Shown in pieces: positions 43,164 to 60,211 of a stretch of DNA of 64,000 nt. Under the pieces are notes generated by a model. The model saw only the letters and a list, made by a program, of their open reading frames with translations. It was not told the origin of the DNA and ran no database searches. Location of the stretch: NCBI RefSeq assembly GCF_005869935.1, contig NZ_SZQF01000001.1, positions 310,001-374,000 on the forward strand, read 5' to 3'. The position numbers and the translations under genes are program-made. The stretch comes from Winogradskyella algicola. GTDB taxonomy: Bacteria; Bacteroidota; Bacteroidia; Flavobacteriales; Flavobacteriaceae. Position 1 is the first letter of the stretch. Each line of letters opens with the position of its first letter.

Positions 43164-43967
43164 ATGAAACTATCAATAATAATTGTTAATTATAACGGGG
43201 AAAAATATTTAGCTGACTGTTTAGACTCAATTGAAAAGCAGTGTTGCGATTTTTTATATGAAATTATAATTTGGGACAATGCCTCTAAAGATAATTCTAT
43301 AGAGTTTTTACAAGCTAATTATAGTGATAAAGTTAAGCTTTTTGCTTCTAATGATAATTTAGGTTTTGCGGGCGGTAATAATGCTGCCGCTAAACACGCA
43401 AAAGGAGACTATCTGCTATTGTTGAATAATGATACTATTTTACTTAATCCTTTAAAATCTATTTTAGATTTAATGGATAGAGATTCTAAAATAGGTGTTT
43501 TAGGAATAAAGATGTTGAATGGAAATAGGGATTATACTATTTCTACCGGTTTATTGCCCGAACCTTATCATCTATTTTATTTTAAATGGTTTTCAATAAT
43601 TAACAATGAGTTTGCTTCAGGAAATTTTTTAAGCCACAACCCTATAGAAGTTGGTTGGTTATCAGGTTCTTTTTTAGTAACTCCGAAAAATTTATGGGAC
43701 GATATAGGCGGTCTTGACGAATCCTTTTTTATGTATGTTGAAGATGTTGACTATAATATGGAAGCGGCAAAACGGGGTTATAAAAGAGTATTTGTTCCCT
43801 CTTTGGAGTACATACATTTTGTTGGATTTAATGGTGCAAAAAACAACTTACTCGTAAAAGGATATCGTATTTATATAGCAAAGCATTTTAAGGGTATGAG
43901 TAAAATAATAGCTAATGTGTGTTTAAATGCTAATGAACTTGTAAAAAAGATAAAAGGAAATTATTGA
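43164..43967 (+). CDS. glycosyltransferase family 2 (rhamnosyltransferase-like)
   Basis: 267 residues with a GT-A fold: IIIVNYNGEKYLADCLDSI, WDNASKDNS, LLLNNDTIL (DxD-like metal site), WLSGSFLVTPKNLWDDIGGLDESFFMYVEDVDY. This subgroup (COG1216) often uses dTDP-rhamnose, and a complete dTDP-rhamnose pathway lies at 55.8-59.2 kb. The donor is inference. Confidence 0.92.
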   Translation: MKLSIIIVNYNGEKYLADCLDSIEKQCCDFLYEIIIWDNASKDNSIEFLQANYSDKVKLFASNDNLGFAGGNNAAAKHAKGDYLLLLNNDTILLNPLKSILDLMDRDSKIGVLGIKMLNGNRDYTISTGLLPEPYHLFYFKWFSIINNEFASGNFLSHNPIEVGWLSGSFLVTPKNLWDDIGGLDESFFMYVEDVDYNMEAAKRGYKRVFVPSLEYIHFVGFNGAKNNLLVKGYRIYIAKHFKGMSKIIANVCLNANELVKKIKGNY

Positions 43968-44084: not shown

Positions 44085-44912
44085 CTATTTATAACCATAA
44101 CTAGCTATTTGACTTCTAATAATATCATTTAACCATTTCTTTTCTTCTTCACTCAATGCACTACTCCAATTTCCAATCTTTCCCTTATTAAAGGTAGAGC
44201 TCTTGACAGAATATATCTTATCACAGACATCTTCCAATTGCTGTGGATCTAACTCAATGGATATGTGTTTACAAATACTTTTTACAGCTGCCTCTTGTTT
44301 ATGTCTATCTCCACCTCCATTTGGACCTATTAGATGTTCAAATTTTACACACAAAACATTACTAGACTTTGTCCAGGGTAAAAATTTATCTAAGACTTCT
44401 GGGAATGGCTCTAGTACATCTTTTTTCCCCTTAACCATTGCTTTTAATTTTTCGATCCTAGAGTCATAAGACGCAATGAATTTATGAGATTTTTGGGTTG
44501 TATCCATTTTCTCTATATAATTTAAGTGAGATAATAGTACATCTCTAGGGTCTCGTACTAAATGGATGATTTTTGTATTTTTAGTATTTATAGTTTTTAG
44601 AGCCTTTTCATGATATTGCATGTGGCCAAGCAAGAATTGTCCGTTCTTAATTGAAGATAATACCTTAAGCTTTGGTTCAATAGGGTTTTGAGTTTCTAAC
44701 CTAAGTGTTTTTTTTCCACAATGTCTCATAAATGGCAACTGTAAAAAGAGGCTTTCTAAAAGATGTGTACCAGATTTAGGTAAAGAATTTAATACTACTT
44801 TAGGCCCTTGCTTTCTTCCTTTTATCTGTGACTTTTTAAGGCTATGGAAAAAAATCTCTATTCGTTTAGAGAAATAATATCTGTATTTATCTAAGTTGTT
44901 CTTTGCTTTCAT
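44085..44912 (-). CDS. PAPS-dependent sulfotransferase (type 1 pattern)
   Basis: 275 residues. The PAPS 5'-phosphosulfate loop is LPKSGTH (44-50) and the 3'-phosphate motif is VRDPRDVLLSHL (119-130, Ser128). It would transfer sulfate from PAPS to a glycan hydroxyl. It overlaps the upstream Wzy/WaaL-like gene by 26 bp and is the last gene of the long minus-strand polysaccharide run, whose cysNDC genes would supply PAPS. The acceptor sugar cannot be told from sequence. Confidence 0.88.
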   Translation of the reverse strand: MKAKNNLDKYRYYFSKRIEIFFHSLKKSQIKGRKQGPKVVLNSLPKSGTHLLESLFLQLPFMRHCGKKTLRLETQNPIEPKLKVLSSIKNGQFLLGHMQYHEKALKTINTKNTKIIHLVRDPRDVLLSHLNYIEKMDTTQKSHKFIASYDSRIEKLKAMVKGKKDVLEPFPEVLDKFLPWTKSSNVLCVKFEHLIGPNGGGDRHKQEAAVKSICKHISIELDPQQLEDVCDKIYSVKSSTFNKGKIGNWSSALSEEEKKWLNDIIRSQIASYGYK

Positions 44913-46110
44913 TTTGGTTATCTAATGTAAAATGTAAAATGTAAAGTGTGCCAAAGAAGAGTATTCCTCTTTGTCTCCATATAACCGACTCGGTTATAAA
45001 TAATGATATACTTATAATTATAAAGGGTAATAAGTATTTGATTTTAAATGCTCTTTTTAAAGCCAGCGTAAGACTTATAATAAACATTAGTAGTCCAACG
45101 ATACCAAGTTCTGCAAAAATCTGTAAATATTGATTATGAAAATTATAAGTATGGAACCTTATAGGCGTATTTAATCTTGCATGTATATTTTTTATTTCTT
45201 TTTTTGAAGCATCTAAGCCAACACCTAAAAAATATTTTTTTGGTGAGTTCATTATTTCATTAAAAACTCTTACCTGCAATAATCTTGCCTCTATACCTGT
45301 ATATACCCTACCTTTTTCAAACTTTTTTTCATTTAAAATCTCTGTATAAGATGTATTAAACTCAGAAACAAATCTATTTTTTATTGGGTTTGCAAAAACT
45401 AAAACGAATAACGAGGTTATGAAAATAAAACCAAGTAATAGCAATCTATGTAAATTTCTTTTAATTTTAAAAAATACCATTATGGCAGATATAAAAACCG
45501 TTGTGGTCAGTATCATTTTAGAAGAGAGAAGAATTAAAAAAAAACCTAAAACTAAAAGCTTTATCGTCTTAAGAAGTACTTTACCCTTATTATCCTGAAG
45601 CGTGTATAAAAAACAAAATGAAACCACATAAGATACATATATTGCGTTTAAATCTAAAGGTGATACCAATTCATGGTAATACAAAAATTCTTCAAATTCG
45701 TACTTATAATATCTTAAAATAGCTAGTATAATTAAGGTCGCTGCTAAGCAACACACAAAAACTGAAAACCGATTGAATATTTTTCTAACTTCTAGGGGAG
45801 ATATTTTTGGCAAAAACATACCTGAAATAGCATAAAGAAATAATGGAATTTGCCTCCCTATACCATGTATTGTTTGCGGTTTATCTACAGACCAAATCAC
45901 CGAAATAATAGAGAACAAACTAAAACACAAAAAAGGAATAATTGCTTTTTGAATATGAAATTGTTTCATCTTAACAATCCATATAATCGAGAAAGCAAAC
46001 CAAATTCCAAATGCAAGACTACTAAAAAAATAACCTAGCAGAATAGAACACAATAGAACTAATGTTAGGTAACCAAATATCGTTTCCCATATATCATTTG
46101 TTCTTCTCAT
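44887..46110 (-). CDS. O-antigen ligase/polymerase family protein (first of two)
   Basis: 407 residues, about 11-12 membrane helices, and a large periplasmic loop before the motif HNQYLQIFAELGIVGLL, which is the family signature of WaaL/Wzy. One of the two such proteins here should polymerise repeat units and the other may ligate chains to lipid A core or a carrier; sequence does not decide which. Overlaps: 17 bp with the upstream glycosyltransferase gene and 26 bp with the downstream sulfotransferase gene. Confidence 0.85.
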   Translation of the reverse strand: MRRTNDIWETIFGYLTLVLLCSILLGYFFSSLAFGIWFAFSIIWIVKMKQFHIQKAIIPFLCFSLFSIISVIWSVDKPQTIHGIGRQIPLFLYAISGMFLPKISPLEVRKIFNRFSVFVCCLAATLIILAILRYYKYEFEEFLYYHELVSPLDLNAIYVSYVVSFCFLYTLQDNKGKVLLKTIKLLVLGFFLILLSSKMILTTTVFISAIMVFFKIKRNLHRLLLLGFIFITSLFVLVFANPIKNRFVSEFNTSYTEILNEKKFEKGRVYTGIEARLLQVRVFNEIMNSPKKYFLGVGLDASKKEIKNIHARLNTPIRFHTYNFHNQYLQIFAELGIVGLLMFIISLTLALKRAFKIKYLLPFIIISISLFITESVIWRQRGILFFGTLYILHFTLDNQNESKEQLR

Positions 46111-47197
46111 TAAAACAAGTATTAAAAAACTTTAAATAACTTTCATTTATATATTCCCAGCTAAATTTTGTTTCAATTTTATTACTATTTCTTTTAATTA
46201 AATCAAGCCTATCCTTTTTGTTTTCATTTTTAATGAGCTCTGATACCTCATCGGCTGACTTAAAATAAAAAGCATCGTCTTCAAGTATAGCATAGTTAAA
46301 ATCATTGTGATGAGCTGCAATAAGAGAATGAGAACCCATTGCCTCCAATAATGAAGGATTAGTCCCTCCGACAGAGTGTCCATGAAAATATAACCTTGAG
46401 TTAAACCTTAAGTTGTCTAAAGTTTCTAAATCATAAATTGCTCCCAAAAATCGTATACCCTTATGTTTACTAAACTTCTTTTTTAAATAACTTCCAAAGG
46501 ATGTGGAATCTACGTTTCCTATTACACAAAATGGATATTCTGAATTGCTTCTTACATAGCCATCTAAAATTATTTCAATATTATTCTCGGGTTCCATCCT
46601 TGCAATGAGTAAGAAGTATTCATTGGTTGCTAAATCCTCGTATGTGAAACTAGCTTTTTCGTTTGGTATAAAAACATTAGCTCCATAAGCAATATACTCA
46701 GAGTTCTTATTATATTTTTTTTTAATATATGATTGAATTCCTATAGAGTCTGAAATTAAGTAATCACTTGTTTTAGTGGCGAGTTTTTCTGCATATAATA
46801 AAAACTTTTGTACCTTTTTAGAGTATTTACTTCTTTTCCACTCTAAACCATCCATATTCGTAATAATGGTAGGCTTTGAAGGCAACAACCAACCCCAAAT
46901 AGAACTACTTGTATAGCCTAGCTGTAAAATGATATCATAGTCCCTTTTTCGAGAATCTCTAATGCAATTGAAATCATAAATAAATTGGCCAGCTGTACCT
47001 ATCTTAGACTCTGGATCGTAAGCATGAATAATATTTACTCCTTTATAATTACCCTTTTTATATGGATGAAGATGAGAGTTGTAGACATATACATCGTGTC
47101 CTTTTTCTTTAGCATATACTGCAAAAAAATCGGCAAATTGTTCGAAACCTCCATGATGGTTAGGTATGCCCCTTGTTCCTAAAATTCCTATTTTCAT
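46094..47197 (-). CDS. DUF1972 glycosyltransferase (rhamnosyltransferase-like)
   Basis: 367 residues. The N-terminus IGILGTRGIPNHHGGFEQFADFF is the signature of the DUF1972 subset of GT4 enzymes, several of which are rhamnosyltransferases in streptococcal and Bacteroidota capsules; the donor domain has LLIARMEPENNIEIIL and SVGGTNPSLLEAMG. The local dTDP-rhamnose genes support that donor. It overlaps the neighbouring genes by 4 and 17 bp. Confidence 0.9.
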   Translation of the reverse strand: MKIGILGTRGIPNHHGGFEQFADFFAVYAKEKGHDVYVYNSHLHPYKKGNYKGVNIIHAYDPESKIGTAGQFIYDFNCIRDSRKRDYDIILQLGYTSSSIWGWLLPSKPTIITNMDGLEWKRSKYSKKVQKFLLYAEKLATKTSDYLISDSIGIQSYIKKKYNKNSEYIAYGANVFIPNEKASFTYEDLATNEYFLLIARMEPENNIEIILDGYVRSNSEYPFCVIGNVDSTSFGSYLKKKFSKHKGIRFLGAIYDLETLDNLRFNSRLYFHGHSVGGTNPSLLEAMGSHSLIAAHHNDFNYAILEDDAFYFKSADEVSELIKNENKKDRLDLIKRNSNKIETKFSWEYINESYLKFFNTCFNEKNK

Positions 47198-48480
47198 TCT
47201 ACTCTTTTCATTTTAGACTCCATACTAAATGAAGAGGTCATAGCTAACATCATGCCTAAAATTACTGGCATTATTGGTCTGAAATTATAAATACCGTTAA
47301 TTACAAGCGTGGAAAAAAGCAGATATAATCCTATACCCGAAACACTGACATAATATATATTTTGTTCAGCATTTAAAGGCTTCTTGTAAATATATGTATA
47401 CATATAAAAAATCCATAATAGTAATATCACAACTCCTGTTGACCCGGTCTTAAAAAAAATATATCCATAACCATTATGAATATGAGGAATATACTGCATT
47501 CCTTCTCTATTCAGCGGAGCTACAAAATCTAAATCTACTAATGAGCCAGCACCCATTCCAATAAAAAAGGGAATATAACTATCTTCTTCGGCCATTGTTT
47601 CAACTGCCTTTTTTACTTCATAGGCTCTCCATTTATCCCATAATTGTGTATGGTCATTTATATCAATATCAGCATTAAAAATCTCTTGAGGTGCAATTTT
47701 AAGTTTATATAAAAATGACTCTACTCCCTTAGAATCTCTTTTTATATCCATAAATTGAAGAGATACTATAAATCCTAAAATAAAAAATAAAATGCCTATA
47801 AAATATATTACTTGTTTCTTTGTTACTTGAGTAACTCTATTAAATGAAATTAAAAATAGAACAATAGCAATCATCGTTGTTCGTGAAAAATAAAATAATA
47901 TTGATAGCGTAACAACAACAATAAATAAGTTGGTAAACATTTTAGAAAATATTCTAAATTTCCTTTTTCTATAAAAAACTAAAAAAAGACTATAAATAAA
48001 TGCTTCTTCAGGGCTTCCTTTACCTCCTATTTCCCTTATTCCAGCTGTATTCCAATCATCATCTAAATTTAGATATACTTTGACAATATGTATAACTGAA
48101 ACTAAAAAACAGTAAAGCATCAACCATTTTATAATAGTGTTTTTATTACTATGGTCTGTACTTTTTATAAAATAATATCCAAAAATTATTGCAAAAATAG
48201 GTGTTGTTAAATGTACACAATCCTTTATAAAATCAACTATACTTGGGAAACGGAAAACAGAACCAACTATTGCCAATAAAAAAATTAAAATTAATGGAAA
48301 TAGTATATTAATAATTCTATTGTAAAATTTGATATGTTTTAAAAAGAAATAAAAAGACACTATAACTAAAAGCATAAAGTTAAGTTCAATAGTAAATTGA
48401 CTTATCGCAATTAAAATTAGAATCAAGAAGAGTCCTAGATTGTTGTTTCTTGATGGTATTTTAATTATCAGTTTTTCCAA
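47194..48480 (-). CDS. O-antigen ligase/polymerase family protein (second of two)
   Basis: 428 residues with about 11-12 membrane helices and the motif HIHNGYGYIFFKTGSTGVV in the late periplasmic loop region, matching the Wzy/WaaL superfamily. With the protein at 44887-46110 it gives two candidates for polymerase and ligase. It overlaps both neighbours (13 bp with the sulfotransferase gene, 4 bp with the DUF1972 gene). Confidence 0.83.
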   Translation of the reverse strand: MEKLIIKIPSRNNNLGLFLILILIAISQFTIELNFMLLVIVSFYFFLKHIKFYNRIINILFPLILIFLLAIVGSVFRFPSIVDFIKDCVHLTTPIFAIIFGYYFIKSTDHSNKNTIIKWLMLYCFLVSVIHIVKVYLNLDDDWNTAGIREIGGKGSPEEAFIYSLFLVFYRKRKFRIFSKMFTNLFIVVVTLSILFYFSRTTMIAIVLFLISFNRVTQVTKKQVIYFIGILFFILGFIVSLQFMDIKRDSKGVESFLYKLKIAPQEIFNADIDINDHTQLWDKWRAYEVKKAVETMAEEDSYIPFFIGMGAGSLVDLDFVAPLNREGMQYIPHIHNGYGYIFFKTGSTGVVILLLWIFYMYTYIYKKPLNAEQNIYYVSVSGIGLYLLFSTLVINGIYNFRPIMPVILGMMLAMTSSFSMESKMKRVE

Positions 48481-49334
48481 GCTTCAAGATTTAAGTTAAA
48501 TTTTCTTTCAAGATCATCAATTTCTTTTTTATAGTATGTTAGATATAAATTTTTTCTGGTAGTATAAGGTATTTTCTTTTTGTCCGAAGCTTTTAAGTTT
48601 AAACTTTCCAAATACTCTGCTATACGACGCTTAGTTTCCTTTGAACGTATTAAACTTCCTATAGATTTTTTGATTTTGTTGTCTTTATGTATGAACTTTT
48701 GCACTTTCTTTAACCTGGGTTCAGATGCAGGATTACTTACTTTCTCTATCTTATACTCAAAATCACTCAATCCAATAAATTTGGCAATATCAATTATGCT
48801 CTCTTTAGTTTTCTCAATGAACTCCTCAAAAAGCAATACTTTTATATTTTCCATACCAAAATATTGTTCATATGTTAAGAGTTGTTCTGAATAAAATCCT
48901 CTAGAACGGTAACTGTAATGCATTTTATCTTTCTTATTGCTTATTCTATCACTCTCTTTGTCCATTGCCTCTTCAAATGAAAGATTTTCTAATCCCCTTC
49001 TCTTTGTCATTAAATAATGGGAATATGCCCTATCTATAGGGTTTCTGAGTATAAATATAATTTTGATTCGTCCAAAAGTATCAAATATACGCTCTGCTGA
49101 TTCTATAAAATAAGAATATTCTGGATCAACTTCACCATAAAACTCATAAGGCTTAGAATGATCAAAATATTTTAAATAATGGGGGGTTCCCTTACTGTAA
49201 ATATCTTCATCACTAAAAAAATGAGTTTCTTTTTTTTCAGGTAGACACAATTGATGATGCTGCCCTAAAACATTATGCAATGTGGTTGTGCCTGCTTTTT
49301 GGACACCTACACACAGAAAATCAATTTTGTTCAT
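48468..49334 (-). CDS. PAPS-dependent sulfotransferase (heparan-sulfate type)
   Basis: 288 residues. The PAPS 5' loop is GVQKAGTTTLH (10-20) and the 3'-phosphate motif is LRNPIDRAYSHYLM (about 96-109), the pattern of heparan-sulfate N- and O-sulfotransferases; KKETHFFSD also fits that group. With the enzyme at 44085-44912 the locus has two distinct sulfotransferases, so the glycan may be sulfated at two positions. It overlaps the upstream acyltransferase gene by 14 bp. Confidence 0.92.
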   Translation of the reverse strand: MNKIDFLCVGVQKAGTTTLHNVLGQHHQLCLPEKKETHFFSDEDIYSKGTPHYLKYFDHSKPYEFYGEVDPEYSYFIESAERIFDTFGRIKIIFILRNPIDRAYSHYLMTKRRGLENLSFEEAMDKESDRISNKKDKMHYSYRSRGFYSEQLLTYEQYFGMENIKVLLFEEFIEKTKESIIDIAKFIGLSDFEYKIEKVSNPASEPRLKKVQKFIHKDNKIKKSIGSLIRSKETKRRIAEYLESLNLKASDKKKIPYTTRKNLYLTYYKKEIDDLERKFNLNLEAWKN

Positions 49335-49893
49335 CCCTATATTTTAAAATTTTTGCGGGTACGCCACCCATAATGGCATTTTTTGGCACATCTTTAGTTA
49401 CAACAGCGTTTGCTGCTATTATTGAGCCCTGCCCTACAGTAACTCCCTTAGTAATTACTGCTCCATAGCCTATCCATACATTATTTTCTATAATAACATT
49501 GCCCGTAACTATACCTTGTTGAATCATTGGTAAAGTTGGATTGTCAAATCTATGGTCTGAATCTCTTATTGATACATTTTGAGCTATCATTACATTCTTA
49601 CCTATAACTATTTTTGAGTTTACCCCAATGGTTGAAAAAGATCCAATAAAACTATTTTCACCAACCTCTAATTTACCCGAACCCTGAATTATAACATCAT
49701 GTTGAATACTAGCCCCCTGTTTTAAATAAACTTTTAGTTTTGAATTTTTAAAATTAAATGTCTTTATACTAAATCTTTTCTCTATAGAGCTTTTATTTTC
49801 AAATTTTATAATTCCTAAAAACTTAAGCCTGTAATAAATAGTATAAAATCTTTTAGACATTTTTTGTCTATATTTTTGTACAACGTATATCAT
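49321..49893 (-). CDS. hexapeptide-repeat acyltransferase
   Basis: 190 residues. The C-terminal two thirds is a left-handed beta-helix with the catalytic-type SDHRFD segment and the family end VIIENNVWIGYGAVITKGVTVGQGSIIAANAVVTKDV-type repeat followed by GVPAKILK. It resembles capsule O-acetyltransferases such as WcaF or MaT types, so the glycan may also be O-acetylated. Overlaps of 4 and 14 bp tie it to the flippase and sulfotransferase genes. Confidence 0.88.
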   Translation of the reverse strand: MIYVVQKYRQKMSKRFYTIYYRLKFLGIIKFENKSSIEKRFSIKTFNFKNSKLKVYLKQGASIQHDVIIQGSGKLEVGENSFIGSFSTIGVNSKIVIGKNVMIAQNVSIRDSDHRFDNPTLPMIQQGIVTGNVIIENNVWIGYGAVITKGVTVGQGSIIAANAVVTKDVPKNAIMGGVPAKILKYRDEQN

Positions 49894-51203
49894 ATTCTGA
49901 AAAAAGCATAAAAATCAAATTTTTGTTTCACAAAAATTAAACACATTATATTAATCATTAGATTAGACACTAGGCTGGCTATTGCAGCGCCTTCTATTCC
50001 ATATTTATTTATTAAAAAATAATTTAAAACCACATTAATTATGGCGCTTATTATTGTAAAGTTTCGAAATTGCTTCTGGTAGCTAGTCATGTTTAAAATT
50101 TGCCCCACACTACCAGACATAGCATTGAATAACATTCCCAAAGAAATAATTATCAACACCATTTCGCCTGCAATAAATTCATCACCAAATAATCTAAGTA
50201 TCGGTATTCTAAATATAATTAGAAGAAGAACAAAAGGCAAGCTCATAAACGAAATAATCTTAGTTGCCTTGTGTACTTCTTTCCTAATACCATCTAGGTT
50301 ATTTCCTTCAAAAAAAGCAGAAATTTTAGGTGCTAATACAGTATTTACGGCGGCAATAATAACTAAAACTAAACTACCTACTTTAAAAGCTACATTATAA
50401 ATACCAACATCTTCTTCTCTTACCATTGCGCCCAACATTAACACATCGGTCCAACTAGATACAAATAAAAAAGACGAACTAATCATCATTGGCGTAGAGA
50501 GTTTTAAAATTTCCTTATGGCCTATACTAATTCTTTTTTTTAAAGGAATTTTAATTAAAGATACTAGCTGAATTAAACCAAAAATACCATAAGATAAAAT
50601 ATATCCAATTATTATAAAGTATGGTGGCCATTTAAAATAATAGCAAAGTAAAACGAATAATAGAATACCTATATTGGGATATAAAAAGTAAAAATTACCA
50701 TATCGATTAAACTTTCCCTCAACAGTTAAAAAACTTGTGAATGCCTTATGAGATAAAAATAAAATAGACAGTAAACTTACCCATATTAAGTAGTTAGATA
50801 ATTCTTCTTTTTTAAATACATGAAACGTTAAACTATTTTTAAGTAAGAAAACAGTAATTGTACATAGAGATGATGAGATTAAAACTATGCCTATCGATTT
50901 TCTTAAAAAAGTAGAATGACTAATACCCTTAGAATAATGCTTAGTCATTGAGCCTAATTTAATTAAAGCAGTATCAATTCCTAAACAAAAAAAAACACCT
51001 AAAAAGCTAATCAAAACTTGACTAATAGATACTAAACCGTATACTTTAGATCCATAAAGGTTTGTAATGGCGAAAACCCAAACAAAGCTTAATGCCATAC
51101 CTATTATCCTTCTAAAAAAAACACTTCCGGAATTTTTTATTAACTTTTCTAAATCATAATTATTTAGAAATTTTTGTATTTGACTTGTTACTTTAAGTCT
51201 CAT
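49890..51203 (-). CDS. oligosaccharide flippase (Wzx)
   Basis: 437 residues with about 12 membrane helices and the MOP-family N-terminus (GSVFFRRIIGMALSFVWVFAI). It should flip the completed lipid-linked repeat unit to the periplasm before polymerisation. It is 27 bp after the small lipoprotein gene and overlaps the acyltransferase gene by 4 bp. Confidence 0.88.
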   Translation of the reverse strand: MRLKVTSQIQKFLNNYDLEKLIKNSGSVFFRRIIGMALSFVWVFAITNLYGSKVYGLVSISQVLISFLGVFFCLGIDTALIKLGSMTKHYSKGISHSTFLRKSIGIVLISSSLCTITVFLLKNSLTFHVFKKEELSNYLIWVSLLSILFLSHKAFTSFLTVEGKFNRYGNFYFLYPNIGILLFVLLCYYFKWPPYFIIIGYILSYGIFGLIQLVSLIKIPLKKRISIGHKEILKLSTPMMISSSFLFVSSWTDVLMLGAMVREEDVGIYNVAFKVGSLVLVIIAAVNTVLAPKISAFFEGNNLDGIRKEVHKATKIISFMSLPFVLLLIIFRIPILRLFGDEFIAGEMVLIIISLGMLFNAMSGSVGQILNMTSYQKQFRNFTIISAIINVVLNYFLINKYGIEGAAIASLVSNLMINIMCLIFVKQKFDFYAFFRI

Positions 51204-51230
51204 TAAAACATATTTATTTCCCAGTAATAA

Positions 51231-51788
51231 TTAAGGCAACTCTAAATATATTTTGTCTTCTAAGGTTTTTCTTGATACGAAAAACGGATCAAAAACTCCA
51301 TCTTTCTCAGCTGCAATAGCTGTAAAGCTTTCTCTATCGTAATTAACAAACTTATTAGGGTTAAAGTTCCAGAAAAAATCTTCTTTAGTGATTAATATCT
51401 CATTATCATTACAAGTGATTAAAATTTCATTAAAAACGATAGTTTGAGATTTTTCTGAATTTCCAAACTTCAAAATCAATCTTGTCGGTAAAATATCTTT
51501 ATCTATTCTAAAAGTTAAAGTTTGAAAATTTTCATTTCCTACAACAGGTATATTAACCGAGTTTTTTCTTGTTATTTTGTTTTGTCCGTCTTCTAGATAA
51601 AATAGTGTTAAATCCCCATCTTTTTTTACTGCAGCATTCATTTTTAGAGTAAAGAAACTGTTAGTATCATTACTTATATTATCTTTGGTCTCTATTAAGT
51701 CTATTGTGCTTTTTTCGGGATTTTTTCTATCATCATTACAACCTAAAAAAGCAAACGCAATAAATAAGTATATATAAAATTTATTCAT
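51231..51788 (-). CDS. hypothetical lipoprotein inside the sulfation locus
   Basis: 185 residues: signal peptide with lipobox FLGC (Cys17), a Lys/Asp/Asn-rich spacer, then a beta-rich domain with a lone C-terminal Cys in ITCNDNE. No family recognised. It sits 18 bp after cysN and 27 bp before the Wzx gene, inside the probable operon, which suggests that it has a part in handling or anchoring the sulfated glycan. Confidence 0.75.
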   Translation of the reverse strand: MNKFYIYLFIAFAFLGCNDDRKNPEKSTIDLIETKDNISNDTNSFFTLKMNAAVKKDGDLTLFYLEDGQNKITRKNSVNIPVVGNENFQTLTFRIDKDILPTRLILKFGNSEKSQTIVFNEILITCNDNEILITKEDFFWNFNPNKFVNYDRESFTAIAAEKDGVFDPFFVSRKTLEDKIYLELP

Positions 51789-51806
51789 GGTTTTTATGAG
51801 TGTTTA

Positions 51807-53060
51807 TTAAACTATCATTCCAGCAGCCACAGTCTCATTAGTAGTGTCGTCTACCAAAATAATACTTCCTGTGGTGCGATTCTCTCTATAAGGATCTATC
51901 ATTAAAGGTTTTGTAGTGCGTATTTTAACTTTAGCAATATCATTCATTGTTAAATCACCGTCCTCATTATTTCGCTCTAAGGTACTAATGTCATATTTAT
52001 AAACTACTTCTTTAATCATTGCTTTTTGATCGTTAGAAGTATGCTTGATTGTATATTTAGCTCGTGGCTTAGCTGAACTGTTATTTAACCAACAAAGCAT
52101 CACTTCAATGTCTTGAGATGGTTCTGGTTTATTATTAGTGCGAACTATCATATCCCCACGACTAATGTCTATATCGTCTTCTAAAGTTATAGAAACTGAC
52201 ATTGGTGCGTAAGCTTCTTCTAATTCTTTATCATAAAAATTGATGCTTTTTACTTTTGATGTAAACCCTGAAGGCATTACAGTAACATCGTCACCTTTTC
52301 TTAAAATACCACTTGCCACACGGCCAGCATAGCCTCTGTAATCTATGAAGCCTTCTCGTTGTGGTCTAATAACTGTTTGTACAGGAAACCTAGTATCTAC
52401 TTTATTTATATCGCTACTAATGTGCATTGTTTCTAAAGTGTGTAACATAGGAGCGCCTTGATACCAAGGCATATTTTCTGACTTGTTTACAACATTGTCT
52501 CCTAATAGTGCTGACATTGGTATAAAACGAACATCTTTTACAAGCATTTTTGAAGATACTTCTTCAAATTCTGACACAATATTATTAAATACTTCTTCTG
52601 AAAAATCAACCAAATCCATTTTGTTTACACAAACAATAATGTGTGGTATTTGCAATAAGGACGCTATAAATGCATGACGTTTAGTTTGCTCAATGACACC
52701 ATGTCGTGCATCAATTAGAATAGTCGCTACATTAGCTGTTGAAGCTCCAGTAACCATATTGCGAGTGTATTGAATATGTCCTGGTGTATCGGCAATTATA
52801 AATTTACGCTTTGGTGTTGTAAAATATCTGTAAGCAACATCAATAGTAATACCTTGCTCTCTTTCGTCTCTTAAACCGTCTGTAAACAGTGCTAAATCCA
52901 CACCTTCATGACCTTTTTTCTTACTTGTGTTTTCAATAGCTTCAAGCTGGTCTTCAAAAATAGATTTAGAATCGTATAGCAAACGCCCTATTAATGTACT
53001 TTTTCCATCATCTACACTTCCTGCAGTGGTAAAACGTAATAATTGATTGTTGTCTAACAT
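51807..53060 (-). CDS. cysN: sulfate adenylyltransferase subunit 1
   Basis: 417 residues from ATG 53060; a Met 8 codons upstream precedes the family start (LLRFTTAGSVDDGKST). GTPase of the EF-Tu type that drives ATP sulfurylase: G1 GSVDDGKST, G3 DTPGH, G4 NKMD. With CysD it makes adenylyl sulfate from sulfate and ATP. There is no fused APS kinase; cysC is separate. A probable promoter and a palindrome lie in the 65-bp gap upstream. Confidence 0.96.
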   Translation of the reverse strand: MLDNNQLLRFTTAGSVDDGKSTLIGRLLYDSKSIFEDQLEAIENTSKKKGHEGVDLALFTDGLRDEREQGITIDVAYRYFTTPKRKFIIADTPGHIQYTRNMVTGASTANVATILIDARHGVIEQTKRHAFIASLLQIPHIIVCVNKMDLVDFSEEVFNNIVSEFEEVSSKMLVKDVRFIPMSALLGDNVVNKSENMPWYQGAPMLHTLETMHISSDINKVDTRFPVQTVIRPQREGFIDYRGYAGRVASGILRKGDDVTVMPSGFTSKVKSINFYDKELEEAYAPMSVSITLEDDIDISRGDMIVRTNNKPEPSQDIEVMLCWLNNSSAKPRAKYTIKHTSNDQKAMIKEVVYKYDISTLERNNEDGDLTMNDIAKVKIRTTKPLMIDPYRENRTTGSIILVDDTTNETVAAGMIV

Positions 53061-53077
53061 GTTATTCTTTATATGAG

Positions 53078-53098
53078 ATGCCAAATATAATTTGGCAT
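53078..53098. promoter_or_regulatory. palindrome over a cysN promoter
   Basis: ATGCCAAAT (53078-53086) and ATTTGGCAT (53090-53098) are perfect 9-bp complements around ATA. The left arm contains, on the minus strand, TATATTTG (53089-53082), an exact -7 element 22 nt before the cysN ATG. It could be an operator for a regulator of sulfate activation or an mRNA hairpin. Confidence 0.6.
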
Positions 53099-53125
53099 AA
53101 CAGTTAATTTTTTATTTAATATTGA

Positions 53126-54031
53126 TTAAAAGTATCCTTGACGCTTACGGTCTTCCATAGCAGATTCTGATCGCTTATCGTCACTTCTGTTTCCTCGTTC
53201 GGTATTTCTCATACCTGCAACTTCAGCAGCAATTTTCTCTAATGTGTCGGCATCAGACTCTACACCACCAGTAATAGTAATATCACCTAACGTTCTAAAA
53301 CGTATTTTTTTAGTCACCACTTCTTCATGGTCTTCTAGTACTAAAAATTCAGAATTTGGAATCCAAGAGTCTTGTCTCCAAACTACTTCGCGTTCATGTG
53401 CAAAGTACAATGAAGGAATTGCTATATTCTCGCGTTTTATATAATTCCAAACATCCATTTCTGTCCAGTTACTTATTGGGAATGCTCTAAAGTGCTCTCC
53501 TTCAAAATGCTTTCCATTGAAGATATTCCACAGTTCTGGTCGTTGGTTTTTAGGATCCCATTGTCCAAAATCATCTCTATGAGAGAAGAAACGCTCTTTA
53601 GCTCTTGCTTTTTCTTCGTCACGACGTCCACCACCAATAGCACAATCAATCTTATTTGCCTCAATAGCATCAAGAAGTGTTGTAATTTGAAGTGCATTAC
53701 GCGTAGCATTTTTCCCTTTCTCTTCAGCAACACGACCTTCGTCAATAGATTCTTGAACAGAACCAACAATAAGCTGCGCACCTAATTCTTTAATAATATC
53801 ATCTCTAAACTGAATGGTTTCTGGGAAATTATGACCAGTGTCAACATGCATTAATGGAAATGGTATTTTTGCTGGATAGAATGCTTTTTTTGCTAAGTGT
53901 GTTATCAAAATAGAATCTTTTCCTCCTGAAAATAATATTACTGGGTTTTCAAATTGTGCCCAAACTTCACGTAAAACAAAAATTGCTTCACTCTCTAATT
54001 CATCTAAATAATTTAAATAATACTTACTCAT
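53126..54031 (-). CDS. cysD: sulfate adenylyltransferase subunit 2
   Basis: 301 residues. The PP-loop SGGKDS (35-40) marks the ATP pyrophosphatase fold, and the GGRRDEEKARAKERFFS and GNRSDDKRSESAMEDRKRQGYF segments are typical of CysD. It is the catalytic subunit of ATP sulfurylase and partner of CysN. It overlaps cysC by 4 bp. Confidence 0.97.
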   Translation of the reverse strand: MSKYYLNYLDELESEAIFVLREVWAQFENPVILFSGGKDSILITHLAKKAFYPAKIPFPLMHVDTGHNFPETIQFRDDIIKELGAQLIVGSVQESIDEGRVAEEKGKNATRNALQITTLLDAIEANKIDCAIGGGRRDEEKARAKERFFSHRDDFGQWDPKNQRPELWNIFNGKHFEGEHFRAFPISNWTEMDVWNYIKRENIAIPSLYFAHEREVVWRQDSWIPNSEFLVLEDHEEVVTKKIRFRTLGDITITGGVESDADTLEKIAAEVAGMRNTERGNRSDDKRSESAMEDRKRQGYF

Positions 54032-54639
54032 TGTTGCTTTGACAATTTTGGTGTAATATAATCTACGATTCGTTGCGCAGCTGCCTCAACCGATTCGTTT
54101 TCTGTTTTTATTTCAATATCAGGGCTTTCTGGTGCCTCATAAGGAGCTGAAATTCCTGTCATATTTTTTATTTCCCCAGCGCGTGCCTTCTTGTAAAGCC
54201 CTTTTACATCACGACTTTCACACTCTTTCAGACTGGTATTAATAAATATCTCGACAAAGTTAACATCTTTAACGATACTTCTAATGTTCTCTCTGTCTTT
54301 TTTGTAAGGCGACACAAATGCTGCAAGTGTCACCAAACCCGCATTTACCATTAAATTTGCAACTTCAGCAATCCTACGGATATTTTCTGTTCTATCTTCG
54401 GGAGAAAAGGTTAAATCATTATTAATTCCTTTCCTAATATTATCGCCATCAAGCGTAAACGTTTTTATACCTTTTTGATGAAGTTTTTGCTCTACTACAT
54501 TCGCTATTGTGGATTTACCTGATCCTGACAAACCTGTAAACCAAAGAAGAAAAGAATTGTGTTGATTGCTCTTTCTTCTGTCATTAACAGAAATTTGATA
54601 ATTGTGTGGTATAATATTTTTGTTCATATTAATCTTCAT
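54028..54639 (-). CDS. cysC: adenylylsulfate kinase
   Basis: 203 residues. P-loop GLSGSGKST (36-44), then GDNIRKGINNDLTFSPEDR and the substrate motif AAFVSPYKKDRE. It phosphorylates APS to PAPS, the sulfotransferase donor. A second Met four codons in (54627) would avoid an 11-bp overlap with the DUF2061 gene, so the exact start is uncertain. Confidence 0.96.
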   Translation of the reverse strand: MKINMNKNIIPHNYQISVNDRRKSNQHNSFLLWFTGLSGSGKSTIANVVEQKLHQKGIKTFTLDGDNIRKGINNDLTFSPEDRTENIRRIAEVANLMVNAGLVTLAAFVSPYKKDRENIRSIVKDVNFVEIFINTSLKECESRDVKGLYKKARAGEIKNMTGISAPYEAPESPDIEIKTENESVEAAAQRIVDYITPKLSKQQ

Positions 54640-55057
54640 TTCTTTTCGTTAAACCAAAATTCACTTTATACCATGCGCGTTCATGCAGATAGTATAATAT
54701 CATTTTAGTAATCACTTCTGCAAAGCCTATTTTTAATGCAGAGAGAGGATTACCTGAAATAATCCAGGCCAAGGTCATAGTGTCCAAAGTTCCTATAAAT
54801 CGCCAAGTAAACGTTTTTGCTATATGGCGTTTTCTGCTTTCTAAAATAATTCCATCCTTAGATAAATTAATCTTAAACCAAACACGCTCATGAAGATAAT
54901 ATAATACACTTTTAGTTGTAACTTCCGCAACACCTATTTTTATGCCTGCTAAGGGGTCTCCTGTAATTATCCATGAAAGAACAATAGTGTCTAAAGTTCC
55001 TATTATTCTCCAAGTAATCGTCTTTGCTATATGTCGTTTGTAAGAAGCGTCAGCCAT
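54629..55057 (-). CDS. tandem-duplicated DUF2061 membrane protein
   Basis: 142 residues made of two DUF2061 units: residues 7-65 and 76-134, identical at 41 of 59 positions, each with KRHIAKT, TWR, IGTLDT and YYLHER and one to two membrane segments. DUF2061 genes are often found near cysDNC genes. It sits between cysQ and cysC. A part in sulfate uptake or in holding the sulfate-activating enzymes at the membrane is plausible but unproven. Confidence 0.9.
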   Translation of the reverse strand: MADASYKRHIAKTITWRIIGTLDTIVLSWIITGDPLAGIKIGVAEVTTKSVLYYLHERVWFKINLSKDGIILESRKRHIAKTFTWRFIGTLDTMTLAWIISGNPLSALKIGFAEVITKMILYYLHERAWYKVNFGLTKRNED

Positions 55058-55058
55058 A

Positions 55059-55853
55059 TTATTTGCTAACTAGGAAATAACTGTTTAATAAGTTTTCTTT
55101 ATTATATTTTAATGGCTGATTGGTGTCTTTAGAAATAACCTTTATACCTACCGCGTTACAAATGGCTTGACCAGCGGCTGTATCCCATTCCATTGTGGGT
55201 GCGTATCGTGGATACACGTCCGCATTACCTTCTGCCACCAAACAAAACTTTAATGAGCTTCCCTTGGATACAATCTCAACTTCTTTTCCTTCATTTTTTA
55301 AAGCTTCAACAAAGTTTAATGTATCTTCATTCATGTGGGATCTACTTCCAACAACTTCAATATTTTTTGAAGTGTTAAGCTTAGGCTGTATTGGTTTTGA
55401 TAATTTCAAAACCTCATCTATGGTGGTATCGTGTGAACCTAACTCGGCTTTAAATGCGCTTCCTTCTTCTACATTGCCGTAGTAAATTGTCTTAACAGCT
55501 GGCACATAAATTACACCTAACTTTGGTATGCCATTTTCTACAAGTGCTATATTAACCGTAAACTCACCATTTCGTTTAATAAACTCTTTTGTTCCATCCA
55601 CAGGATCTACAACCCAACAGGTATTCCAGGTTTTCCTAACAGTATAATCTATCTGCTTATTTTCTTCTGAGATTATTGGTGTTCCTAATGGTTTTAGAAA
55701 CAAATTAATTACATTATTTGCTCTTTTATCAGCTTCAGTTAGTGGAGATTTATCATCTTTAATTTCAACATTAAAAGCAGTCTCATAAACATTCATGATA
55801 ACTTTTCCTGCTTCTAAAGATGCTTTAATGGCTATTTCTAATTGTTTATTCAT
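55059..55853 (-). CDS. cysQ: 3'(2'),5'-bisphosphate nucleotidase
   Basis: 264 residues of the inositol-monophosphatase-like family. The metal-binding motif DPVDGTKEF and the C-terminal MEWDTAAGQAI are present, with the upstream SEE metal ligand. CysQ removes the 3' phosphate of PAP, the inhibitory by-product of sulfotransfer. Its place beside PAPS synthesis genes and sulfotransferases fits a recycling role. It overlaps rfbD by 8 bp. Confidence 0.95.
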   Translation of the reverse strand: MNKQLEIAIKASLEAGKVIMNVYETAFNVEIKDDKSPLTEADKRANNVINLFLKPLGTPIISEENKQIDYTVRKTWNTCWVVDPVDGTKEFIKRNGEFTVNIALVENGIPKLGVIYVPAVKTIYYGNVEEGSAFKAELGSHDTTIDEVLKLSKPIQPKLNTSKNIEVVGSRSHMNEDTLNFVEALKNEGKEVEIVSKGSSLKFCLVAEGNADVYPRYAPTMEWDTAAGQAICNAVGIKVISKDTNQPLKYNKENLLNSYFLVSK

Positions 55854-56703
55854 TTTTCAAATTTTGAATTGCTATTTCTAGACTATCTCGCCAGTATGGT
55901 ATTCTTGTGTTAAAACTCGTTTCTGCTTTGGTTTTATCTAACACACTAAAGTGTGGACGTTTTGCTGGAGTAGGAAATTGTTTTGTAGATATATTATCTA
56001 ATTGAATCTCTATGCTGCTAATATCGAAAATGGCTTTAGCAAAATCATACCAACTTGCCACTCCATTATTGCTGTAATGATAAAGCCCATAATTTGAAAA
56101 ATCATTTTCTATAATATATAAAATTGTCTCTGCAAGATCTTTTGCATAAGTTGGCGTACCTATTTGATCTCCCACAACGCCCAATTTGTTCCTGTCTTTG
56201 GACAAACGAAGCATTGTTTTTAAAAAATTACTTCCGTGTTCTGAGTAAAGCCAAGATGTTCTAATAATAAAATACTCCTTTATGATTTGAGTTACTTCTT
56301 TTTCTCCTTTTAGTTTAGTTTCTCCATAAGCACCAATAGGCTTGGTTTGATCGGATTCTTTATACGGTATATTATTATTTCCATCAAAAACAAAATCAGT
56401 AGAAATATGTATTAACTTAATACTATATTCCTTGCAAGATTCTGCTAAATTTTTTACACCTAACACATTGACTTCATAAGCTTTATCGTAATCAGATTCA
56501 GCATTATCAACTGCCGTATATGCCGCACAGTTAATGCACCAATCTATTTTGTTCTCTTTAAAAAAATTCTTGACTTGCTGACGATTAGTTATATCAAGCT
56601 GTGTTGAATTTACATATTGAATATTAAATTTTTTACTCTCAAGGTCTTTGATACACATTCCCAACTGCCCATTACTTCCGGTAACTAATATTCTTGGTGT
56701 CAT
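55846..56703 (-). CDS. rfbD: dTDP-4-dehydrorhamnose reductase
   Basis: 285 residues from ATG 56703 ([15 protein letters not shown]), which overlaps the rfbC stop as ATGA; an ATG 25 codons upstream would lie far inside rfbC. SDR fold with the GSNGQLG loop and catalytic YGETKLKGE. Last step of dTDP-L-rhamnose synthesis, using NAD(P)H. Confidence 0.96.
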   Translation of the reverse strand: MTPRILVTGSNGQLGMCIKDLESKKFNIQYVNSTQLDITNRQQVKNFFKENKIDWCINCAAYTAVDNAESDYDKAYEVNVLGVKNLAESCKEYSIKLIHISTDFVFDGNNNIPYKESDQTKPIGAYGETKLKGEKEVTQIIKEYFIIRTSWLYSEHGSNFLKTMLRLSKDRNKLGVVGDQIGTPTYAKDLAETILYIIENDFSNYGLYHYSNNGVASWYDFAKAIFDISSIEIQLDNISTKQFPTPAKRPHFSVLDKTKAETSFNTRIPYWRDSLEIAIQNLKNE

Positions 56704-57245
56704 TTGAAATATTGCTCTATGGTTGGTAAAATAACATCCTTCTCTGACAGTTGCTCCTCTTCTTTCTTTATTTTCCAATCAATATTTAATGAGGGGTCAT
56801 TATATATGATTCCTGCTTCGGCTTTTTTATTGTAAAAATTATCGCATTTATATGAGAAAATAGCGGTATCGCTTAGTACCGAAAAACCATGGGCAAAACC
56901 TCTTGGGACAAACAACTGTTTTTTGTTTTTTTCATTAAGCTCAACTGCTACATATTGTCCAAAAGTATCAGATTCGGGTCTAATATCTACCGCAACGTCT
57001 AAAACTGCACCTTTTACAACACGTACAAGTTTTGCTTGAGCAAACTCACCAATTTGAAAGTGTAATCCCCTAATTACACCTCTTGATGAAAAGGATTCAT
57101 TATCTTGAACAAAACTAACAGTCTTACCAATCAAGTTATTAAAAGTTTCTTGATTAAAACTCTCAAAAAAATAGCCTCTGTCATCCTGAAATACTCTCGG
57201 ATCAATAATAAAACAACCTTTAAGTTTTGTTTCGCTAGCTGTCAT
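56700..57245 (-). CDS. rfbC: dTDP-4-dehydrorhamnose 3,5-epimerase
   Basis: 181-residue cupin-fold epimerase. The conserved [10 protein letters not shown] (catalytic His) and [16 protein letters not shown] segments are present. Third step in dTDP-L-rhamnose synthesis. It overlaps rfbA and rfbD by 4 bp each. Confidence 0.97.
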
Positions 57246-58111
57246 TTTTTATTTTTTATTAGGCCCAAAAGGTTTTTGCCATAACCACTTTTCAGTAATG
57301 GCTTTGCTAAATCTCGAAATTTATCTTCTGATATGTATCCCATTTCATAGGCTGCGGCCTCAATAGAACCAATCTTTAAGCCTTGTCTATTCTCTATTAC
57401 CTCTACAAACTGTGATGCCTGCATCAAAGAATCAAAAGTACCTGTATCTAACCAAGCGGTGCCTCTATCTAAGATACTTACACTTAGCTTGTTTCTTCTA
57501 AGATATTCTTTGTTTACATCTGTGATTTCTAGTTCGCCTCGATGGCTTGGTTTTATGTTTTTTGCGATATCAACAACGTCATTATCGTAAAAATAAATAC
57601 CTGGAACGGCAAAATTAGATTTTGGTTTTTTAGGTTTTTCTTCAATTGATATCGCTTGTCCTTTTTCGTCAAAATCTACAACACCATAACGCTCTGGATC
57701 ATGAACCCTATACGCATAAATGATGCCACCATCAGGATTATTGTTGCTCTGTAGGAGTTTTGAAAGACCTGTACCGTAAAATATATTATCCCCTAAGATT
57801 AAAGCAACTTTGTCGTCGCCAATAAATTGTTCTCCTATTATAAAAGCTTCCGCGAGACCATTAGGGGACTCTTGTACTGCATATTTGAAAGTACAACCAT
57901 ATTTTTTACCATCACCAAGTAAATCATTAAAAAGAGGTAGGTCTTTAGGTGTTGATATGATTAAAATTTCATTAATACCAGAATACATTAACGTAGACAA
58001 TGGATAGTAAATCATTGGCTTATCATATACCGGCATTAATTGCTTACTTACAGATAATGTCAAAGGATGTAGTCTAGTACCAGATCCACCGGCTAGTATA
58101 ATTCCTTTCAT
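57242..58111 (-). CDS. rfbA: glucose-1-phosphate thymidylyltransferase
   Basis: 289 residues, short RmlA type without a beta-helix tail. [30 protein letters not shown] nucleotide-binding start, then [11 protein letters not shown] and EKPKKPKSN. First step in dTDP-L-rhamnose synthesis, making dTDP-glucose. Overlaps rfbB by 4 bp. Confidence 0.97.
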
Positions 58112-60208: not shown

Positions 60209-60211
60209 TTA

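Follow-up and report, generated by a model that had tools for sequence, protein, structure and literature searches.

The locus at 44085-56703 of the window, the 64,000-nucleotide stretch of Winogradskyella algicola DNA that was analysed, raises the question of why a full gene set for turning sulfate into PAPS lies in one cluster with flippase, polymerase/ligase, glycosyltransferase and nucleotide-sugar genes. The locus is very probably a dedicated PAPS-supply and sulfotransfer module within a Wzx/Wzy-type surface-polysaccharide operon of this member of the Flavobacteriaceae, which has marine relatives, with a sulfated glycan as the predicted product. In the course that we infer for the enzyme activities, the acceptor sugar, the timing of sulfation, the role of DUF2061 and the sulfate in the product, sulfate would be converted to APS by CysD/CysN and APS to PAPS by CysC, two sulfotransferases of different type would sulfate the repeat unit in the cytoplasm ahead of flipping by Wzx, and the inhibitory by-product PAP would be cleared by CysQ. 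The DUF2061 protein encoded directly ahead of cysC would most likely be a membrane partner, serving in sulfate entry or in tethering. The repeat unit probably contains rhamnose and may be O-acetylated.

The genes named in a preliminary description of the locus were all found on the minus strand near the places given there (open reading frames and Pfam). The gene order is rmlBACD-cysQ-DUF2061-cysC-cysD-cysN-lipoprotein-wzx-acyltransferase-sulfotransferase-wzy-GT-wzy/waaL-sulfotransferase, in a tightly packed operon with a largest intergenic gap of 41 bp. The locus extends past 44085-56703, on the 5′ side to an M23 peptidase gene and past the 3′ end to a sugar transferase and glycosyltransferases. 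The features are as follows.

63432-64000, minus strand: M23 peptidase, first gene of the operon, full-length product 289 aa, 5′ end outside the window
61930-63432, minus: GH3-family protein (Pfam), left border of the locus, a position common to many related loci
60212-61903, minus: DUF6909 protein (Pfam), left border, also in related loci
59153-60208, minus: 351-aa protein, left border, no Pfam family, homologues in 59 of 94 clustered loci
58108-59175, minus: RmlB-like dTDP-glucose 4,6-dehydratase (Pfam)
57242-58111, minus: RmlA-like nucleotidyltransferase (Pfam)
56700-57245, minus: RmlC epimerase (Pfam)
55846-56778, minus: RmlD reductase (Pfam)
55059-55853, minus: CysQ, 3′(2′),5′-bisphosphate nucleotidase for PAP removal (TIGR01331, 257.6 bits; cut-off 228.8)
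54629-55057, minus: tandem DUF2061 membrane protein with two repeats (PF09834, two stretches)
54028-54639, minus: CysC, APS kinase (TIGR00455, 257.6 bits; cut-off 138.7)
53126-54031, minus: CysD, ATP sulfurylase small subunit (NF003587, 441 bits; cut-off 195)
51807-53084, minus: CysN, ATP sulfurylase large subunit (TIGR02034, 561.6 bits; cut-off 336.1)
51231-51788, minus: beta-rich lipoprotein, unmatched in Pfam and NCBIfam, with homologues in 36 of the 94 clustered loci
49890-51203, minus: Wzx-type flippase (PF01943 and others)
49321-49893, minus: hexapeptide acyl/acetyltransferase, WbbJ-like, with a score under the WbbJ cut-off
48468-49334, minus: sulfotransferase 1, carbohydrate (3-OST-like) type (PF00685, 56.1 bits; 3rnl, E 3.1e-36)
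47194-48480, minus: Wzy_C protein, polymerase or ligase (PF04932)
46094-47197, minus: DUF1972/GT4 glycosyltransferase (PF09314)
44887-46110, minus: Wzy_C protein, polymerase or ligase (PF04932)
44085-44912, minus: sulfotransferase 2, of SULT-like type, with which the operon ends (PF00685, 55.4 bits; weak SULT matches)
42072-43157 and 43164-43967, plus: two glycosyltransferases beyond the 3′ end of the operon
40011-41366, minus: initiating sugar-phosphate transferase, Bac_transf (PF02397)
38854-40014, plus: glycosyltransferase beyond the 3′ end of the operon

The identities proposed for CysC, CysD, CysN and CysQ were borne out by NCBIfam scores exceeding the curated cut-offs; the closest CysC matches came from Winogradskyella and its relatives. 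Of the several glycosyltransferases announced for 44085-56703, a single GT-like protein lies there (the DUF1972/GT4 protein, which we take to be perhaps a rhamnosyltransferase), and the further ones lie beyond the 3′ end. The first reading had overlooked both the DUF2061 gene in the cysQ/cysC interval and the lipoprotein gene after cysN. The predicted structure of the lipoprotein (pLDDT 87) gave weak lipase/C2-type matches (best E 2.1e-3), and no fold assignment was accepted. In the list of open reading frames the M23 peptidase appears only as an inner 121-aa frame, and its gene overlaps the neighbouring one by one base; the frame listed for rmlD begins at a TTG within rmlC, the real start probably being near position 56703.

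A whole-genome search for the sulfite reductase family NIR_SIR gave zero matches in this genome (99.99% complete), while the same search was positive in 11 of 14 reference genomes. Neither a Sat-type nor any second ATP sulfurylase was found in the genome; cysD and cysC are each single-copy, and both lie in the cassette. One copy of a CysH-family reductase is encoded outside the cassette on contig C39, between sucC and an esterase gene and near uvrB; it carries the motifs CC, CxxC and ECGLH and has four cysteines that we take to denote the Fe-S APS reductase type. The earlier statement that PAPS reductase and sulfite reductase genes are absent therefore holds for both within the window and for sulfite reductase genome-wide, but for the CysH-type reductase it is true only locally, because of the gene on C39. 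The preliminary description had also weighed the case of a sole cysDN copy tied to cysteine synthesis: the copy is indeed the only one, but the link to cysteine synthesis is without a known sulfite reductase (NIR_SIR absent).

Because CysH stands alone on C39, APS may have a second use. CysDN would then supply APS both for PAPS and sulfation and for the lone CysH, the sulfite from which would enter a sulfonate, for example cysteate for sulfonolipids. Such double use is a possibility that we rate as rather unlikely. The motifs of CysH and the missing NIR_SIR match are consistent with it, and cysteate-derived sulfonolipids occur in Bacteroidota (PMC9304779, in an excerpt that does not mention sulfite), while the genes around cysH (sucC, the esterase gene and uvrB) speak against it. 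Double use would in any case oppose only the exclusivity of the dedicated module, not sulfation itself.

The two sulfotransferases were confirmed as dissimilar, both exceeding the Pfam Sulfotransfer_1 cut-off and differing in type. Sulfotransferase 1 (48468-49334) resembles the bacterial sulfotransferase 3rnl and heparan-sulfate 3-O-sulfotransferases, and sulfotransferase 2 (44085-44912) shows a weak likeness to 5x2b and SULT-type enzymes. A further sulfotransferase is encoded on contig C37. The SULT-type enzymes being the nearest likeness of sulfotransferase 2, one may ask whether the pair acts on a small molecule or a lipid instead of the polysaccharide. This is very unlikely: both genes share the operon with, and overlap, glycan genes, sulfotransferase 1 is nearest to 3rnl and the heparan-sulfate enzymes, and both stay with wzx, wzy and glycosyltransferase genes in Winogradskyella marincola, where the downstream region is the same as here, and in some other relatives.

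Among 159 genomes of the family, which are mutually related and not independent samples, raw counts gave a sulfotransferase in 61 of the 74 with a strong cysC and in 2 of the 85 without. Of 105 genomes with a PF01583 match, 31 had only matches weaker than E 5e-47 and were taken as lacking cysC. Sulfite reductase showed no association with cysC (39 of 74 cysC-positive genomes vs 51 of 85 others). The sulfotransferase count includes PF00685 matches of about 850 aa; these were suspected to be false and were kept because the one scanned, L125, is a phosphodiesterase-TPR-sulfotransferase fusion. In G037 and G021, whose sole PF00685 match is of this kind, an ordinary-sized Sulfotransfer_3 protein is also encoded. 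A PF00685 match is absent from 13 of the 74 cysC-positive genomes. One of these gaps (G029) is accounted for by a Sulfotransfer_4 protein adjoining the cassette and a second (G054) probably by the like, its protein being a cluster-mate of the one in G029, which leaves 11 genomes; a PF13469 search enlarged the sulfotransferase set by one genome, again G054, with a match below the cut-off. The cassette is conserved in 80 named loci and its place in a polysaccharide operon is kept in related genera, with a sulfotransferase within about 10 kb in only 42 of the 63 full-length named loci. That the PAPS is meant for sulfation, as first proposed, is thus supported by the lack of NIR_SIR, the co-occurrence of cysC with sulfotransferases and the conserved operon position.

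The bearing of cysD on assimilation differs among these genomes. In all 35 cysC-positive genomes lacking sulfite reductase (SIR), cysD adjoins cysC and no other cysD is present. The cysC-linked cysD is also the sole one in 23 of the 39 cysC-positive genomes with SIR, and because it is their only one it presumably serves assimilation there too. In trees of selected sequences, not of all available ones, cysC-linked CysD (30 rows, the window included) and SIR-linked CysD (22 rows) separated with support 100/100, and cysC-linked CysN (31 rows, the window included) likewise separated from SIR-linked CysN (22 rows), the cysC-linked branch having support 100/100 among the rows listed. CysD and CysN of the window group with the cysC-linked lineage, not the SIR-linked one. 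In relatives, the SIR-linked cysD shares its operon with DUF2061, a CysH-like reading frame, cysN and SIR, and cysC and cysQ were absent from all 22 assimilatory-operon stretches drawn. The assimilatory operon thus resembles the cassette in its CysD, CysN and DUF2061 families and in having DUF2061 ahead of cysD, but differs in its CysD/CysN lineage, its single-domain DUF2061, its sulfite reductase and its lack of cysC and cysQ. cysCDN looks to have been exchanged between genera by recombination. That the cassette is the cell's ordinary route to cysteine, placed among polysaccharide genes by chance, is very improbable and was rejected as its role because the genome has no NIR_SIR match: it would fit the lack of another cysDN, the CysH on C39 and the dual use probable in the 23 relatives, but against it stand the separate lineage and operon of SIR-linked cysD and the fact that cysC follows sulfotransferases, not SIR, across the 159 genomes.

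In every one of 80 related loci the tandem DUF2061 gene immediately precedes cysC, and DUF2061 was found in 124 of 130 family genomes with cysD and in 0 of 29 without. Among at least 118 DUF2061 reading frames (the stronger matches), split by frame length with tandem forms taken as at least 135 aa, the tandem form adjoins cysC and the single form mostly adjoins assimilatory cysD, here a higher-scoring class that is mostly but not wholly SIR-linked. Outside Bacteroidota, 9 of 21 plasmid-borne DUF2061 genes (5 Mesorhizobium, 3 Microvirga and 1 Gemmatirosa) adjoin cysD/cysN in stretches of 6-8 kb, and in Mesorhizobium plasmid nod clusters DUF2061 lies between the sulfotransferase and cysD. The other 12 (10 haloarchaeal, Bradyrhizobium and Photobacterium, the last in a stretch ending at the record end) gave no tblastn match to the cys proteins of the window. 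The predicted structure has four helices (pLDDT 85); a fold search against PDB returned nothing below E 0.001 (best E 2.0), and a sequence search against PDB no match at E up to 1. A role as the only sulfate importer was rejected, SulP-family proteins being present in 154 of the 159 genomes and with three matches in this one. Our guess is that DUF2061 is a membrane partner of sulfate activation, via sulfate entry or membrane tethering. Its link to sulfate activation is newly described here; published excerpts on DUF2061 that were searched held no link to sulfate. Tentatively, and at somewhat less than even chance, sulfate activation has a membrane component in DUF2061 that has so far gone unrecognised, either a small helical unit for sulfate entry or a tether drawing CysDN/CysC to the membrane; its tandem form would mark the APS-kinase/sulfation branch, and cysQ-DUF2061-cysC-cysD-cysN would be an exchangeable cassette giving marine Flavobacteriaceae genera a stretch of homology at which surface-antigen modules can be swapped.

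Marine Flavobacteriaceae are known chiefly for breaking down the sulfated polysaccharides of algae. It is probable that many also produce sulfated glycans for their own surface, the sulfate-activation branch being retained in genomes without sulfite reductase; cysC with tandem DUF2061 offers a simple genomic marker, and a domain of unknown function gains a testable assignment. If true, this would matter for surface antigens and phage receptors, and for where the sulfated polymers of the sea come from.

Among known systems, the rhizobial genes for Nod-factor sulfation, nodPQ and nodH, likewise comprise an own copy of ATP sulfurylase/APS kinase adjoining a sulfotransferase; unlike here, the product is a lipochitooligosaccharide and not a polymer, DUF2061 is single-domain and CysN is fused to APS kinase. 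Among the papers listed in the literature search, none was on a sulfated-glycan locus of Flavobacteriaceae. The synechan xss cluster of Synechocystis 6803 shares Wzx/Wzy, two sulfotransferases of distinct subfamilies and a rhamnose-containing product, but PAPS-making genes in the cluster are not mentioned in the excerpt (PMC8205485). The capsule locus of Cobetia marina KMM 1449 has a PAPS operon with cysQ adjoining export genes, and dTDP-rhamnose, as here, but, as far as the excerpt goes, cysN/cysC is bifunctional there, the operon includes a separate gene for a sulfate permease, and export is of the ABC type (PMC11766843). The excerpt on Vibrio sp. KMM 8419 describes cysN, cysD, cysC, sulfotransferases and rml genes in one capsule cluster, like here, and a solved structure with an O-acyl group on rhamnose; unlike here, cysNDC of that cluster are second copies (cysDNC is the only copy in W. 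algicola), export is by an ABC transporter instead of a Wzx-type flippase, and DUF2061 goes unmentioned (PMC11641403). In the same excerpt, the presence of PAPS and sulfotransferase genes in a capsule cluster is called a hallmark of the synthesis of sulfated polysaccharides (PMC11641403). A sulfated surface glycan is the best reading of the W. algicola locus, in agreement with these published sulfated-capsule loci.

In the window (C10:310001-374000), the minus-strand operon ending at 44085 comprises 21 genes with gaps of at most 41 bp, and CysC, CysD, CysN and CysQ each passed the NCBIfam cut-offs. Taken as a whole, it is very probably the sulfation module of a surface polysaccharide. The features are as follows.

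5′ part of the operon, minus strand: M23 peptidase (first gene, starting just beyond the window edge), GH3, DUF6909, 351-aa protein, rmlB, rmlA, rmlC, rmlD
Middle of the operon, minus strand: cysQ, DUF2061, cysC, cysD, cysN, lipoprotein, wzx, acyltransferase
3′ end of the operon, minus strand, down to 44085: sulfotransferase 1, Wzy_C, DUF1972/GT4, Wzy_C, sulfotransferase 2
40011-41366, outside the operon: initiating sugar transferase
Between 38854 and 43967, plus strand, outside the operon: three glycosyltransferases

DUF6909 plus the 351-aa protein (59153-61903) form a recurrent border of the polysaccharide locus across genera. A homologue of the divergent lipoprotein directly after cysN (51231-51788) is present in 36 of the 94 loci clustered; no family was assigned to the lipoprotein, and its predicted structure is beta-rich.

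Genome-wide (3.36 Mb, 44 contigs; 99.99% complete), PF01507 matched twice, in the window CysD and in a CysH on contig C39; the window's cysC was the only APS kinase and Sat had no match. The window thus holds the sole ATP sulfurylase and sole APS kinase of the genome, which, as NIR_SIR also had no match, is without a known sulfite reductase. The preliminary description saw no PAPS reductase, which is correct within the window but not genome-wide, given the CysH on C39. This protein (L009:12820-13533), an Fe-S-type APS reductase, passes NF002537, carries the CC, CxxC and ECGLH cysteines and stands alone beside sucC; its sulfite is perhaps destined for sulfonolipid cysteate. In sulfite reductase (SIR) loci of relatives, a CysH-like ORF is without the CC/CxxC cysteines in five (L139, L144, L145, L160 and L162) and retains them in two others checked (L149 and L152). 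We take these cysteines to mark the Fe-S cluster of APS reductases; yet two of the five genomes (G001 and G002) have no strong cysC (PF01583 at E 5e-47 or better), and the five ORFs are possibly APS reductases without the cluster.

Across 159 genomes of the family (158 genera), strong cysC was found in 74, NIR_SIR in 90 and Sulfotransfer_1 (PF00685) in 63. With shared ancestry ignored, a sulfotransferase was present in 61 of 74 cysC-positive versus 2 of 85 cysC-negative genomes (Fisher P value=2.5e-28), while the internal control in the same genomes, cysC against SIR, showed no association (39/74 versus 51/85; P value=0.42, shared ancestry likewise ignored). Thirteen cysC-positive genomes had no PF00685 match: in G029 a Sulfotransfer_4 protein adjoins cysN, in G054 a cluster-mate of that protein, assigned by clustering alone, adjoins cysC, and 11 remain unaccounted for. 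In all 35 cysC-positive genomes without SIR, cysD lies beside cysC and nowhere else; in the 39 with SIR, cysD is only cysC-linked in 23, only SIR-linked in 12 and both in 4. From these positions, the cassette (cysQ through cysN) seems to exist in the family in two states, sulfation-only and shared.

Phylogenies built from 52 CysD and 53 CysN rows follow this linkage. A single branch (support 100/100) parts cysC-linked from SIR-linked CysD without exception; the same split holds for CysN among the rows listed (cysC-linked branch 100/100). G029, which bears both kinds, also obeys it, and the window CysD and CysN group with the cysC-linked proteins.

With CysC as query, 209 relatives were found. 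In the best 80 of these, from Winogradskyella, Psychroserpens, Formosa, Lacinutrix, Bizionia, Xanthomarina and other genera, and with cut or insert-bearing loci included, DUF2061 is directly upstream of cysC in 80 and cysQ is second upstream in 73; cysD follows cysC in 74, then cysN in 59. The 63 full-length loci carry rml genes (59), the wzx cluster (39), the lipoprotein (33) and a sulfotransferase (42). The cassette is fixed and its surroundings are variable. An MBOAT acyltransferase separates cysD from cysN in 6 of these 80 loci, usually accompanied by a partner without Pfam match. Fifteen loci have MBOAT plus such a partner, of ~490 aa, close to the sulfation cassette (for example, L052:12794-15772; clusters c20 and c21). 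Both arrangements suggest that acylation and sulfation are linked.

Identity at four-fold third positions differs from gene to gene. Against Meridianimaribacter (L047) and Hanstruepera (L049) it is 58-63% for cysC, 76-87% for cysD and 66-67% for cysN, with the remaining genes compared at 25-42%; codon constraint is not an obvious cause of the high cysD value, as cysD reaches just 44-47% against two other loci (L053 and L058). Winogradskyella marincola (L048) shares the lipoprotein through sulfotransferase 2 at 86-94% DNA identity; its four-fold third positions match at 84-85% in wzx and GT4, 72% in sulfotransferase 1, 86% in cysD, 70% in rmlA and 36-39% in cysQ and DUF2061. Such contrasts point to recombination tracts, and we read cysCDN as one putative tract and the glycan module as another. 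In the same genus, the cassette of G134 is far more diverged (cysD at 70% amino-acid identity).

DUF2061 was found in 124 of the 130 family genomes with cysD (exceptions: G020, G072, G080, G085, G111 and G147) and in none of the 29 without. The matches listed contain 118 ORFs. Of these, 43 are tandem forms (frames of at least 135 aa), every one with cysC no more than 3 kb away; the other 75 are single forms, and for 66 of them a cysD from the higher-scoring class, which is mostly SIR-linked, lies at no greater distance. Of the nine near neither, four (one each in G022, G081, G089 and G136) lie within ~1.6 kb of SIR. The SIR-linked stretches drawn have the order DUF2061, cysD, cysN in 22 of 22, with an ORF of ~200-235 aa between DUF2061 and cysD. 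Seven such ORFs, including one in the G134 stretch (SIR present, cysD absent), align with the lone C39 CysH. On plasmids outside Bacteroidota, tblastn gave 21 DUF2061 records, nine with cysD/cysN alongside (five Mesorhizobium, three Microvirga, one Gemmatirosa). Four annotated Mesorhizobium plasmids (L164, L172, L173 and L174) carry nod genes, then sulfotransferase-DUF2061-cysD-cysN; the Gemmatirosa order, cysQ-DUF2061-cysC-cysD, is identical to that of the window. No cysD/cysN was detected within the 6-8 kb searched in the other 12 (ten haloarchaeal, Bradyrhizobium and Photobacterium, the last stretch ending at the record end).

The DUF2061 model (pLDDT 85) predicts two halves that together comprise four long helices, and neither fold search nor sequence matched the PDB. 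A sulfate importer is one possibility, though import by DUF2061 is not required, as SulP proteins occur in 154 of the 159 genomes, with three matches in this one. Counting against a sulfate-specific role, passages of iron studies place DUF2061 genes of Caulobacter and Shewanella among expression changes (PMC3751524, PMC12442407), and part of a Pseudomonas aeruginosa report discusses one with stress (PMC12632274).

The two sulfotransferases of the operon differ in type. Sulfotransferase 1 is nearest to the bacterial sulfotransferase 3rnl (E 3e-36), then to heparan-sulfate 3-O-sulfotransferases (best E 1e-13); sulfotransferase 2 has just weak matches, to 5x2b (E 1e-5) and to SULT enzymes. By eye, both keep what we presume to be PAPS-loop-like motifs, KAGTTT and PKSGTH respectively. 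Sulfotransfer_1 matched five places in the genome: two in the operon, two on C43, with glycosyltransferases among the scanned neighbours, and one on C37. In G021, the fusion at L125:1806-4454 joins a sulfotransferase domain at its C terminus to TPR repeats and a type I phosphodiesterase domain, an architecture established by domain scan of this locus alone; frames of ~850 aa also occur in other cysC-positive genomes.

Clusters of the same kind are already known in Vibrio (PMC11641403), Cobetia (PMC11766843) and cyanobacteria (PMC8205485); the Vibrio authors regard a cluster of this sort that combines PAPS genes with sulfotransferases as a "hallmark" of sulfated polysaccharide synthesis. To these systems are added a Flavobacteriaceae form whose CysD and CysN make up a lineage of their own and which occurs in genomes without sulfite reductase, a link to DUF2061 that extends beyond a single phylum, and a putative mosaic exchange.
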